A stretch of DNA of 64,000 nucleotides from contig NZ_AP024233.1 of assembly GCF_025998535.1 (NCBI RefSeq), positions 1,276,217-1,340,216 of the forward strand, given 5' to 3'. A program made the position numbers and the translations under genes. The notes under the pieces are model-generated. The model had not been told where the DNA came from. It saw only the letters and a program-made list of their open reading frames with translations, and did no database searches. Positions 50,007 through 54,088 of this stretch are shown here, in pieces. Each line of letters opens with the position of its first letter. Positions within the stretch are counted from its first letter, which is position 1. Source of the stretch: Desulfolithobacter dissulfuricans. Its GTDB lineage: Bacteria; Desulfobacterota; Desulfobulbia; Desulfobulbales; Desulfobulbaceae.

Positions 50007-50993
50007 ATGCAGAAAATTACTAACATTGTCCTTATGCTGGTGCTGCTCATGCTTGGCGGTGCCTTTGGTTATATGCTGTTTGAGCATACCGGCTTCTGGG
50101 AGGGTATGTATCTGACGGTGATCACCATTACCACTGTCGGCTATGGTGATATTGTTCCGGTGCATCCCGCCGGCAAGGTATTTACCGTACTCCTGGTTTT
50201 CGCCGGGGTAGGCCTGGTCTTCTATGTCTTTGGCAAGATAACCGAGACCATGGTGGAGGGCGGTTTTCGTTCAATCATGGAGAGGAGAAAAATGAACAAA
50301 AAGATTGCCCGGTTGCGGGATCATTATATCGTCTGCGGCTTTGGCCGTATCGGCCAGGTGATCTGCGAGATTTTAAAGGAAAACAACCGGCCCTTTCTGG
50401 TGATAGAGCGGGATGAGGAGGTCATCAAGGAGATCGAAAAGGAGGAATACATCGAGCTTCACGGGGAAGCCTCGGACGATGATATCCTGCTCAAGGCCGG
50501 AATCCAGCGGGCCAGGGGGCTTATTGCCGTAGTTTCTTCAGATGCGGATAACCTCTACATTACCCTGACCGCCCGCGGTCTCAATCCCGATCTGTTTATC
50601 CTGGCCCGCTCCAGCGGCGCCCACGGCGCTGAAACCAAGCTGATGCGGGCCGGGGCTTCCAAGGTGATCTCGCCCTACTACATCGGGGCCAGGCGGATGG
50701 CCCAGCTTATCGTCCGGCCCACGGTTATCGATTTTATCGATCTGACCATGCATGCCGGAGAACTGGGCCTGCGGATGGAGGAACTTCTGGTGAGTGAGAA
50801 TGCTTCCTTCAAGGGGAAAAATCTGATGGAATCGGGCATCCGCCAGAAATATGACGTGATCGTGGTCGCCATCAAGCGGGCCGGCGAGAAGATGCTGTTC
50901 AATCCCGGCCCGGATACGGTCCTGTTGCCCGGTGATATTCTGGTGGTCCTGGGGCAGTACGAGCAGATCAGTGCTTTGGAAAAGGAGGTCTGA
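50007..50993 (+). CDS. Potassium channel with TrkA-N/TrkA-C (RCK) domains
   Basis: 328 residues. Two membrane helices flank the K+ selectivity filter TTVGYGD (ITITTVGYGDIVPVHPAG). A TrkA-N/RCK nucleotide-binding domain follows (YIVCGFGRIGQVICEILKE, with Glu in LVIERDEE), then a TrkA-C domain (about 245-328, FKGKNLMESGIRQKYDVIVVAIKR). It is a 2-TM ligand-gated K+ channel of the MthK type. It overlaps the convergent pdxJ end by 26 bases. Confidence 0.93.
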   Translation: MQKITNIVLMLVLLMLGGAFGYMLFEHTGFWEGMYLTVITITTVGYGDIVPVHPAGKVFTVLLVFAGVGLVFYVFGKITETMVEGGFRSIMERRKMNKKIARLRDHYIVCGFGRIGQVICEILKENNRPFLVIERDEEVIKEIEKEEYIELHGEASDDDILLKAGIQRARGLIAVVSSDADNLYITLTARGLNPDLFILARSSGAHGAETKLMRAGASKVISPYYIGARRMAQLIVRPTVIDFIDLTMHAGELGLRMEELLVSENASFKGKNLMESGIRQKYDVIVVAIKRAGEKMLFNPGPDTVLLPGDILVVLGQYEQISALEKEV

Positions 50994-52152
50994 TCCGCTC
51001 AAGCATCTCCCGGACGGCCTGATCCAGGCCGACAAACACAGCCCTGGTTATGATCGCATGGCCGATGGAGAGTTCCTCGATGGTGTCCAGAGCGGCGATC
51101 CTCGGGGTTGTCAGATAATCCAGTCCATGGCCGGCATTGACCCGCAGCCCCGAGGCAAAGGCCAGCTCCGCTGATTCTTCTATGAGGCGGAATTCCCGGT
51201 CCCGTTCCTTTTCCGTGGTCGCATCGCAGTAGCGGCCCGTATGCAGTTCGACAAAAGTGGCTCCTACATCAACGGCCGCCTCGATCTGGACCGCGTCCGG
51301 GTCTATGAACAGGGAGACAGGGATCCCGGCTTTCTCCATTTTGGCTATACATTTGCGAATCTTCTTTTCATTGCCGATCACGTCCAGGCCGCCTTCGGTG
51401 GTCAGTTCCTGGCGTTTTTCCGGGACCAGCGTAATCATGTCCGGCTTGATATCCAGGGCAATACCGATGATTTCCTTGGAGGCGGCCATCTCCAGATTGA
51501 GCTTGGTCTTCACCGTCTGCCGCAGCAGCCAGACATCGCGGTCCTGGATGTGGCGGCGGTCTTCCCGCAGATGCACCACAATGCCGGAGGCGCCGGCCAG
51601 CTCGCAGATACCGGCGGCCAGGACCGGGTCGGGTTCGTCGATCCCGCGCGCCTGACGCACGGTGGCTACATGGTCTACATTGATGGCAAGATGAGGCATG
51701 GTATCACTCCTTGACTCGTGCAGTTGATGGATCAGTTGCAGTTCCCGGTCCCACATGGCTTCTGCCTCGGACTCGGATCGTTCGTGGTCCCAGCCCAGCA
51801 GATGCAGCAGGCCATGGACGATCAGCCGGGTCAGACGCTGGTGCAGGGTGGTTCCGGTCTGTGTTGCCTCCCGCGAGGCCGTGTCCACCGAGATGATGAT
51901 GTCCCCGAGTTCATCCGCCGGGGCCAGCCCGGGGGGCAGCTCTTCTCCTCCGGCGGCAAAGGCGAGCACGTTGGTGGGACCGGTGCGGTGGCGGTAGTGG
52001 GCATTGTACCCGGCCATGGTCTCGTCATCGACGAGGATAATGCTCAGGCTCTTTCCTTCACAACCGAGTTCGCGCAGCAGCCAGCGGGTCCGCCTGGCAA
52101 GGAGAGCTGTACTGATCGGCGCTGGGTGGTGGCTCTGGATATGGACTGGCAT
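50968..52152 (-). CDS. In-frame YbeY-PdxJ fusion (rRNA maturation RNase / pyridoxine 5'-phosphate synthase)
   Basis: 394 codons with no stop between two normally separate genes. Residues 1-151 are YbeY: the zinc motif HGLLHLLGWDH is complete. Residues 152-394 are full-length PdxJ: MPHLAINVDHVATVRQARG, VVHLREDRRHIQDRDVWLL, VELHTGRYCD and VNAGHGLDY. PdxJ joins 1-deoxyxylulose 5-phosphate and 3-amino-2-oxopropyl phosphate. A strong AAGGAG lies before the internal ATG at 51699, so separate PdxJ can also be made. YbeY starts at 52152, 6 bases after the phoH stop. Confidence 0.88.
   Translation of the reverse strand: MPVHIQSHHPAPISTALLARRTRWLLRELGCEGKSLSIILVDDETMAGYNAHYRHRTGPTNVLAFAAGGEELPPGLAPADELGDIIISVDTASREATQTGTTLHQRLTRLIVHGLLHLLGWDHERSESEAEAMWDRELQLIHQLHESRSDTMPHLAINVDHVATVRQARGIDEPDPVLAAGICELAGASGIVVHLREDRRHIQDRDVWLLRQTVKTKLNLEMAASKEIIGIALDIKPDMITLVPEKRQELTTEGGLDVIGNEKKIRKCIAKMEKAGIPVSLFIDPDAVQIEAAVDVGATFVELHTGRYCDATTEKERDREFRLIEESAELAFASGLRVNAGHGLDYLTTPRIAALDTIEELSIGHAIITRAVFVGLDQAVREMLERIRPPFPKH
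51699..51712 (-). promoter_or_regulatory. pdxJ: Internal ribosome site for pdxJ
   Basis: On the minus strand CAAGGAGTGATACC directly precedes ATGCCTCATC. The spacing (7 bases after AAGGAG) is ideal, and the following residues are the canonical PdxJ start. It decides that free PdxJ (50968-51699, 243 aa) is probably translated besides the fusion. Confidence 0.7.
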
Positions 52153-52158
52153 GGGGTA

Positions 52159-53241
52159 TTACTCGGCCCGGAGAATGGTTGATGGCTTCTTTTCTTTCTT
52201 CCTGCCTGACCGGGCCGCAACCCGGACTTCCTGGTCTTCGTAGGCCTGGATGATTTCCTGAACCAGCGGGTGGCGAACCACGTCGGACTTGGCAAAACGG
52301 CTGAAGTGGATGCCCCGGATGCCTTCCAGGATATTCTGGGCCTCTACCAGGCCGGAACGGGTCGAGCCGGGCAGGTCGATCTGGGTGATGTCTCCGGTGA
52401 CCACGGCCTTGGAGTCAAAACCGATCCTGGTGAGAAACATCTTCATCTGCTCCCGGGTGGTGTTCTGGGCCTCGTCCAGAATGATAAAGGCGTTGTTCAG
52501 CGTCCGGCCGCGCATGAAGGCCAGCGGCGCGATTTCGATAATTCCGCGCTCCACCAGCTCCTGGGCCTTGTCCTGGCCGAGCATGTCGTTAAGGGCGTCG
52601 TAGAGCGGCCGCAGGTAGGGGTCCACCTTCTGGGCCATGTCGCCGGGCAGAAAGCCCAGTTTTTCGCCCGCTTCCACCGCTGGCCGGGTGAGGATGATGG
52701 AACGGACCTGTTCGCTGGCCAGGGCCGAAACCGCCATGGCCACGGCAAGATAGGTCTTGCCGGTTCCTGCCGGACCGATGCCGAAAACAATGTCATTGTG
52801 GCGAATGGCCTCGATGTAGCGTTTCTGGTTGACGCTCTTGGGTGAAACCACCCGGTTGCGCGAGGTGATGTACACCTTGTCGAGAAAGATCTCCTCGAGT
52901 TGGGTCCTGGGAGATGATTCCAGGATTTTAACCCCAAAGGCGATATCCTGAGTAAAGATGGGATAGCCCTTGCGGATCAGTTCGTAGAGCTGCTCCAGGA
53001 CCGAGGCGGCCAGGCCGACGGCGTGGCTGCGGCCCTTGACCTGGAGCAGGTTGCCGCGGGCGTGGATGGAGACGCCGGTAGCCTGTTCCACGGTCTGCAG
53101 GTTACGGTTGAGGTCGCCAAACAGGACCTGGGCCGCGGCATTGTCGCTGAAGTCCAGGTTCCGGGTGGTCTGGTTGTTCTTTGGCGTGGCAGTTATCTTC
53201 AAATCAGTTCTGTCTGGTTGCTTTCTCTTTTTTTCTCGCAA
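52159..53241 (-). CDS. PhoH-family ATPase
   Basis: 360 residues: an N-terminal KH-like region (VSIHARGNLLQVKGRSHAV) and a PhoH P-loop domain with Walker A GIGPAGTGKTYLA, Walker B IILDEAQNT, and GDITQIDLP. PhoH/YbeZ proteins act with YbeY in RNA and ribosome maturation, and ybeY follows directly. The N-terminus is uncertain: the frame's first start is a TTG at 53241 inside the end of the selenoprotein gene, preceded by AGAG. Confidence 0.9.
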   Translation of the reverse strand: MREKKRKQPDRTDLKITATPKNNQTTRNLDFSDNAAAQVLFGDLNRNLQTVEQATGVSIHARGNLLQVKGRSHAVGLAASVLEQLYELIRKGYPIFTQDIAFGVKILESSPRTQLEEIFLDKVYITSRNRVVSPKSVNQKRYIEAIRHNDIVFGIGPAGTGKTYLAVAMAVSALASEQVRSIILTRPAVEAGEKLGFLPGDMAQKVDPYLRPLYDALNDMLGQDKAQELVERGIIEIAPLAFMRGRTLNNAFIILDEAQNTTREQMKMFLTRIGFDSKAVVTGDITQIDLPGSTRSGLVEAQNILEGIRGIHFSRFAKSDVVRHPLVQEIIQAYEDQEVRVAARSGRKKEKKPSTILRAE

Positions 53242-54088
53242 GTTCTCTGTCGATCATTTTCTGGATGGCCGACACGCTGCGGCTGTCTGATCTGATCAGG
53301 TGGCCGTTGACGAACAGGGTCGGTGTTCCAGATACATTGGCCTGCTGTGCGTCCCGCATGTCCTGCAAGACCCGGGCCCTGGTTTCCTGGGAGTTCATGT
53401 CCTTTCTGAACTGTTCCATGTCCAGGCCCAGTTCCTCTGCCATCTTCATGATGCTGTCAGGGTCCAGCTTTTCGGCCGCGAACAGCTTGTCATGCATCTG
53501 CCAGAACTTACCCTGGTTCTGGGCGGCCACAGCGGCCCGGGCAGCGGGTTCGGCGTATTCATGGATACGGACCAGCGGCAGATGTTTGTAGGCGATTTTA
53601 AGGGTGTCAGGGTTTTTTTCGAGCAACTGCTCGAGCAGCGGCTGTACCTTGCCGCAGTAAGGTCACTGGAAGTCCGAAAAAACCACCAGGGTGACCGGAG
53701 CGTTTTCCGGTCCCAGAAAGGGCGCCCTGCTGACGTCGATGTTCTGGGTGAAGCTGACGTCGACGGCCGTGAAGGAATTGCCATCCCTGCTGACCAGGTA
53801 CAGTGTTTCACCTCTGGGAGCTATGTCGATACCGCTGATATTCCTGTCCACCGGGATGGCCCCCAGTTTTTCGCCCCTTGCCGTGTAGACATGGACCTTG
53901 TGGTCGCTGCCCAGGACAAAAACCTTCTTACCGTCCAGAGTGTGGACAAAGTCGAGCGGGGTGGTATCCAGTTTCCAGCTGGTCCTGATCGACCAGTCCA
54001 CTTCGCCCGCGGTATCTGCTGTTTCCTGCAGGGCATGGGCCTGGACAGGCAGCATGAGCAGGGCACAAAGTGTCAGAGCTTTTTTCAT
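53204..54088 (-). CDS. DsbA-like thioredoxin-fold selenoprotein (UGA = selenocysteine)
   Basis: One 294-residue frame runs from the ATG at 54088 to the stop at 53204 if the TGA at 53663-53665 is read as selenocysteine (residue 142). The sequence around it is VVFSDFQ-U-PYCGKVQPL, replacing the CPYC motif of DsbA/Thioredoxin_4 proteins; the cis-Pro segment SGTPTLFVNG follows later. Residues 1-19 are a signal peptide, and 25-110 form a small beta-propeller-like part (VHTLDGKKVFVLG). A hairpin with a GGT loop lies just after the TGA. Likely a periplasmic thiol/selenol oxidoreductase. The separate ORF starting at 53626 is an artefact. Confidence 0.88.
53636..53665 (-). promoter_or_regulatory. UGA selenocysteine codon and bacterial SECIS-like hairpin
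   Basis: After the UGA the RNA reads CCUUACU, then the stem GCGGC, the loop AAGGUACA, and the stem GCCGC. The GGU in the loop lies 15-17 bases after the UGA. A short stem with a GG(U) apical loop at this distance is the bacterial SECIS design recognised by SelB. Confidence 0.75.

Follow-up and report, generated by a model that had tools for sequence, protein, structure and literature searches.

DsbA-like selenoproteins in which selenocysteine (Sec) takes the first position of a UxxC motif are dealt with in passages of PMC1088965, PMC1794560 and PMC13188914. The "DsbA-like protein form 1" of PMC13188914 (PF01323), as characterized there, shares with the protein analyzed here the DSBA thioredoxin fold, Sec as the first residue of UxxC and the existence of Cys homologues; compared by description, the passages of these three papers mention neither a propeller nor a two-hairpin signal. 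The ScsC proteins of Proteus mirabilis and Caulobacter resemble our protein in their catalytic fold (7rgv, 5idr, 4xvw) and in having an N-terminal extension before the thioredoxin domain. According to the relevant parts of PMC5524982 and PMC8900818 they are trimeric disulfide isomerases, and in P. mirabilis the trimer on which isomerase activity depends is formed through the N-terminal stalk (PMC5524982); the P. mirabilis protein, however, combines Cys with a coiled-coil trimerisation stalk, whereas ours combines Sec with a two-bladed beta module. Helicobacter pylori DsbI, as portrayed in a passage of PMC4597128, also has a propeller within a disulfide-exchange system, but on the membrane redox partner, while here the propeller-like part is found on the soluble thioredoxin-fold enzyme (again a comparison by description). 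The catalytic fold is further shared with BdbD of Bacillus subtilis (3eu4), at 23% identity over 188 columns. BdbD contains Cys instead of Sec and is not known to have a propeller. As a type, then, the DsbA-like UxxC selenoprotein is known; what is unusual here is the propeller fusion together with tandem hairpins at a spacing of 34 nt.

The gene lies in a stretch of 64 kb (hereafter the window), a portion of one contig of 3,596,428 bases from Desulfolithobacter dissulfuricans, a deep-sea bacterium with sulfur metabolism. It runs on the minus strand from an ATG at 54088 to a terminal TGA at 53206-53204 (294 codons); the first-pass annotation had given its span (53204-54088) exactly and left the strand unstated. 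The standard-code ORF list contains 53663..54088 (minus strand, 141 aa) and 53204..53626 (minus strand, 140 aa, from an internal TTG), and the ORF list and the translation both bear out the earlier observation that two ORFs surround one in-frame TGA placed at the first Cys of a CPYC motif. With this TGA translated as U, the motif reads FSDFQ-U-PYC. The features of the gene and of its product are:

53204..54088, minus strand: predicted selenoprotein gene, DsbA/ScsC-like thioredoxin-fold oxidoreductase, 294 aa with Sec142 (translation with TGA as U, Pfam, Foldseek)
54032..54088, minus strand: likely signal peptide, residues 1-19, cut after AHA (by-eye reading of the sequence)
53759..53959, minus strand: two-bladed beta-propeller-like domain, seven strands, residues 44-110 (AlphaFold2, Foldseek, VIA-align)
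53249..53722, minus strand: DsbA-like thioredoxin domain, residues 123-280 (Pfam, AlphaFold2 model, Foldseek)
53663..53665, minus strand: in-frame TGA read as Sec142, first residue of UPYC (TGA, TGC or TGT at 70 of 70 examined places)
53654..53656, minus strand: Cys145 of UPYC (invariant in 58 of 58 aligned proteins)
53321..53326, minus strand: Thr255-Pro256 (both invariant in 58 of 58 aligned proteins)

Selenoprotein genes of such kind are often missed in annotation. Of the 298 selenoprotein genes in the 20 test genomes of PMC12013277, 195 had a correct annotation, and Table 2 of that paper lists 22 known selenoprotein genes for strain GF1 of D. dissulfuricans (GCA_025998535.1); the main text of the paper describing GF1 has no mention of seleno, thiol, disulfide or thioredoxin, and a paper on cable bacteria likewise gave no hit for any of five terms. 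Scanning the whole window for a TGA in an open frame followed by a bSECIS hairpin yielded 12 candidates, and by eye, from the flanking peptides, this gene alone was judged credible.

Of 57 genomes searched, namely the own genome and 56 others from its family and order, 56 gave a match. The 70 places that were examined comprise our gene, 29 kept as loci and 40 fetched; the omitted matches were mostly weaker, and the only match in genome G047 (E 8.6e-4) is outside the 70. The codon at position 142 is TGA in 31 of these places and TGC or TGT in the other 39, in agreement with the earlier expectation that Cys-containing relatives should put Cys at this position. The propeller-fused family accounts for 60 places (22 Sec, 38 Cys); the other ten are nine members of a shorter Sec family and one Cys protein that resembles a VKOR fusion (L071). 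Two Cys genes, L037 (split frame) and L042 (contig edge), are included in the 38 of the Cys counts and stand outside the 58-row protein alignment; L037 (G033 C1:2395228-2396093) appears as two matches split near residue 230, perhaps because of a frameshift or an assembly error. The shorter family (L062-L070) is a second group of DsbA-like Sec proteins, without the propeller, with TGA in 9/9, the motif UPHC in eight and UAHC in L062, and with GGU near +19-21 after the UGA in a possible hairpin; a search with the protein of our gene found no member of it in the window's genome. A second set was drawn from at least 571 relatives in genomes elsewhere, of which the best 80 were kept. Nineteen of these 80 span the N-terminal domain (11 TGA, 8 Cys), mostly from Desulfobacterota or deltaproteobacterial bins by title, with one labelled Poribacteria; the remaining 61 comprise 59 Cys, one TGA and one TAT. 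In this set TGA, TGC or TGT is thus present at 79 of 80 places, the single TAT belonging to a partial match.

The catalytic domain is matched by two Pfam families, Thioredoxin_4 (PF13462; E-value 8.7e-26, 91.5 bits against a cut-off of 23.2, residues 123-280) and DSBA (PF01323; 2.2e-23, 83.5 bits against 25.6, residues 133-277). The full-length AlphaFold2 model (mean pLDDT 93.1) is matched by Foldseek to 3gyk, Caulobacter ScsC 7rgv, BdbD 3eu4, Wolbachia DsbA2 6eez, 5idr and 4xvw. In the 58 aligned proteins position 142 is invariably U or C; Cys145 is presumably the resolving residue of UPYC, and Thr255-Pro256 would correspond to the cis-proline loop typical of the thioredoxin fold. Judged by these profiles and by the predicted structure, the protein is a thioredoxin-fold enzyme of the DsbA/ScsC/BdbD type. 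The best-scoring NCBIfam model, NF041057 (Rcas_1661 thioredoxin-like (seleno)lipoprotein, a family referred to as DsbG-like in a passage of PMC13188914), aligns with the catalytic domain (residues 122-280) at 76.5 bits, below its cut-off of 190; five relatives, one of them from the short family, also stay below it (76.1 to 89.4 bits). The DsbG model NF008657 scores 27.5 bits against a cut-off of 124, and no lipobox could be read in the signal peptide of this protein.

The first-pass annotation had also pointed to an N-terminal propeller-like part, which a confident model and fold matches now support. Modeled alone, the N-terminal domain has a mean pLDDT of 93.7, and its seven strands make just under two four-stranded blades. 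Foldseek gave a single match at E <= 0.001 (best E 8.6e-4), and the domain matches one fragment of 6r5x (TM 0.69 by target length), an 8-bladed propeller built from four two-bladed fragments; VIA-align reached Z up to 10.1 over 86 residues at 2.2 A, a size of Z that is not rare. Some of the fold matches we take to be propeller proteins, others are so by title, and it is on this footing that the modeled domain appears propeller-like; neither Foldseek nor VIA-align named a single propeller class for it. The claim that such a fusion is uncommon does not stand within the group, where it spans the families examined and recurs in 19 of the best 80 loci elsewhere. Pfam has no family for the domain. 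On a Dsb-like selenoprotein the propeller fusion is unusual, and in the open-access literature, covered mostly by title and abstract, we found no report of one. Since two blades cannot close a propeller alone, the two-bladed module probably makes the enzyme oligomeric via propeller closure between protomers, or else docks it to a partner. The title of 6r5x names no oxidoreductase, and oligomerisation is for our protein a prediction. By analogy, the propeller unit may play a role here like that of the trimer stalk; a helical stalk of the ScsC type is absent from the model, which has seven beta strands at 44-110 and no helix between residues 18 and 144. The module suggests a way to join several thioredoxin domains. 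Seven relatives (genera g9 and g14) have an ORF just upstream with further copies of the two-bladed repeat. In G026 and G008 a protein of 225-251 aa is encoded directly upstream of the Cys homologue (L169:6112-6786, L170:4513-5265), with two copies of the repeat, no thioredoxin domain and no Pfam family over cut-off.

The 294-residue product would be exported and act in the periplasm as a putative thiol-disulfide exchange enzyme, in which selenolate 142 would attack the substrate disulfide and Cys145 would resolve the intermediate. No DsbB was found in the genome, and a plausible electron acceptor would be a 327-residue protein (C1:1983808-1984791, L166:5809-6792) that scores 20.6 bits to VKOR, below the Pfam cut-off of 27.5. 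Because it carries CVNQGC, CSYC and, nearer the C-terminus, CPHC, this protein resembles a divergent VKOR-thioredoxin fusion; that it reoxidises our enzyme is a guess. The same two observations, no DsbB and only a divergent VKOR-like protein, would also suit an enzyme that is mainly a reductase or reduces peroxides, neither an isomerase nor an oxidase, with Sec providing fast reduction or resistance to over-oxidation in a sulfidic periplasm; Sec often serves in peroxide and thiol reduction. However, the fold and motif are those of ScsC, BdbD and DsbA, and no peroxidase is named among 50 Foldseek titles; we regard this reading as less likely and prefer that of a Dsb-like exchange enzyme.

The bSECIS model, as set out in a passage of PMC13188914, requires a hairpin 16-37 nt from the UGA, with an MFE <= -7.5, whose stem has 4-16 bp and whose loop of 3-9 nt carries G at its first or second base. 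We applied it in our own implementation, with contiguous stems only and bulges disallowed. The first-pass annotation had anticipated a bacterial SECIS-like hairpin after the UGA, and one of the predicted kind is present; it is located, however, not at 53636-53662, where the match was expected, but at 53619-53634. The GC stem of 5 bp described earlier, with the loop AAGGUACA at +13..+20 after the UGA, is present as well, so that two hairpins follow the codon:

53638..53655, minus strand: proximal hairpin, GCGGC-AAGGUACA-GCCGC, at +8..+25 after the UGA (enriched in Sec forms)
53619..53634, minus strand: distal hairpin, likely bSECIS, UCGAGC-AGUU-GCUCGA, at +29..+44 after the UGA, loop at +35..+38 (bSECIS rules, pair counts)

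The distal hairpin conforms to the bSECIS rules (loop AGUU, 6 bp, spacing 34 nt, -8.1 kcal/mol). The rules are passed by 20 of the 22 fused Sec genes, where 0.72 would be expected from synonymous recoding with the codon use of the family, and by one of the 38 fused Cys genes (L015; 0.56 expected from synonymous recoding). Ten of the 11 Sec loci of the second set pass too, all at spacing 34 (L080 among them repeats an earlier genome), and two of its eight Cys loci do so via other hairpins; L053 and L059 among the 22 and L096 among the 11 fail. Of the shorter-family selenoproteins one of nine passes. In a set of 32 distinct Sec genes, from which L080 and L081 were dropped as identical to earlier loci, the loop at +35..+38 is AGGU in 28 and AGUU in four. 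The stem pairs in 98.4% of cells in the first 22 Sec genes, vs 17.5-46.8% in slid versions, and shows double compensations from GC to CG at +31/+42 (L093) and at +33/+40 (L089); its covariation score was reached by 1/500 shuffles and its number of both-side pair changes by 30/500. The distal region is stabler than its recodings (p <= 0.05) in 21 of 22 Sec genes and in one of 38 Cys genes.

The proximal hairpin does not qualify as a bSECIS because of its spacing of 12 nt and a loop that begins with AA, with no G in the first two bases. Under a separate rule (at least 5 bp, loop 3-8, <= -3 kcal/mol, within +1..+28) it is present in 30 of the 32 Sec genes (all except L055 and L108; 7.5 expected from synonymous recoding) and in 10 of 46 Cys genes (5.3 expected from recoding). 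Both hairpins are enriched in Sec forms. The proximal region is stabler than recodings (p <= 0.05) in 9/22 Sec genes (mean z -2.07) and in 2/38 Cys genes. Its sequence, loop and 5' arm vary, with the 3' arm mostly near +20..+26; in a fixed register 82.9% of cells are paired vs 72.8% in shuffles (0/500 as high), although the slid controls are not clean, as three-column slides still pair 59.0% and 70.5% of cells. The bSECIS test is passed by 19 of 24 TGA-containing selD genes from these organisms, with the apical loop 19-21 nt from the UGA, and by none of seven Cys selD genes; at 34 nt, the signal loop of our family thus lies some 14 nt farther from the UGA, beyond a folded stretch.

This distance could be turned around: the proximal hairpin might be the SelB-binding SECIS and the distal one secondary, given that its loop is closer than the distal one to the 19-21 nt of selD, contains GGU in this genome and belongs to a hairpin found in nearly all Sec genes. 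Neither its loop sequence nor its register is conserved, however (L009 has AAAAUUCA; others UCU, UUA, UCAU), in this gene it departs from the published model in both its spacing and its lack of an early loop G, and the distal loop AG[GU]U stands at +35..+38 in 32/32, all of which makes this assignment improbable; the proximal hairpin as the sole SECIS was rejected on the same evidence. We favor the distal hairpin: SelB charged with Sec-tRNA would bind its AGUU/AGGU loop and decode the UGA, the proximal hairpin between them would shorten the path or help to hold the ribosome, and one SelB would serve both the selD-type and the 34-nt signals. A tandem-hairpin signal at 34-nt spacing is unusual, and no report of a two-hairpin SECIS was found in the open-access literature, again mostly by title and abstract. 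Tentatively, and with the doubts outweighing, we propose a distinct Sec-insertion signal of tandem hairpins, in which SelB binds the distal hairpin while the proximal hairpin, whose shape but not sequence is conserved, folds the spacer to normal distance, a signal inherited by propeller-fused Dsb selenoproteins across Desulfobacterota and repeatedly lost upon the change to Cys. With selD at 19-21 nt and this family at 34 nt, such a signal would open the spacing rule of bacterial SECIS elements to testing.

The Sec machinery, whose absence from the genome would have spoken against the first-pass reading, was found complete: selA (637 bits), selB (380 bits), selD (352 bits, with an in-frame TGA of its own) and tRNA-Sec, that is selC (73 bits), are all over their cut-offs. 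SelB is over cut-off in 19/19 genomes with the fused Sec form and under it in eight of 57, seven of which have a homologue, with Cys in all eight examined copies; in three of these seven (G011, G045, G054) a strong tRNA-Sec match suggests that the assembly simply lacks selB. Several genomes have both TGA-containing and TGA-free selD (loci L172-L201). We read the gene as encoding a selenoprotein because the TGA takes the place of the first Cys, has been retained in many genera along with Sec-specific hairpins, and is accompanied by the Sec machinery; the pattern is beyond chance, since TGA, TGC or TGT occupies all 70 places of the first set and the downstream RNA structure seldom occurs in synonymous recodings or Cys homologues. 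A reading in which the TGA is a genuine stop, results from a sequencing error or marks a pseudogene, with a truncated propeller fragment as the only product, fits the two separate ORFs of the standard code but is hardly credible, as the codon is TGA in 22/60 fused-family loci (own included) and TGC/TGT in the remaining 38, the frame is open to full length on both sides in 22/22, the RNA structure 3' of the TGA is under selection, and the Sec machinery is encoded in the genome. Decoding of TGA as Trp or Cys via an altered code was ruled out, as TGA is also the stop codon of this very gene and the genome encodes the Sec machinery. On the strength of the sequence comparisons, we consider it very probable that this is a selenoprotein gene with SelB/distal-hairpin decoding, that its product is an exported Dsb-like exchange enzyme, and that Sec and Cys have been switched among its relatives.

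For this last point we used a quick protein tree with position 142 omitted and no bootstrap, in which 18 of 55 inner branches are open. The tree requires at least 14 Sec/Cys changes, six of which well-supported branches make unavoidable; with shuffled labels the average is 17.8, and 17-19 of 500 shuffles come out no higher than the observed number. Directly downstream, on the same strand, phoH is found in 30 of 30 loci tested (own included), in Sec and Cys loci alike, at distances of 6-53 bp, counted from the end of the gene up to where the phoH alignment begins rather than to the phoH start codon; this constant neighbor argues for orthologues that changed in place. Over the tree, the Sec forms have the distal hairpin at the same place and with the same loop class, and L015 is a Cys form that still has it, both other aligned members of its genus being Sec. 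The same gene thus appears to have switched between Sec and Cys many times among relatives, with the hairpins mostly lost in Cys forms; most likely Sec is ancestral and was repeatedly lost, a direction that the counts alone do not separate from gain. Sec and Cys swapping at one orthologous locus offers a natural series for asking what Sec buys.

Elsewhere in the window, a single open frame at 50971-52152 (minus strand) joins YbeY (residues 28-143) to PdxJ (155-386). As an ORF of a relative (L170:1355-2518) reads by eye like the same YbeY-PdxJ fusion, the frame is probably a real fusion.
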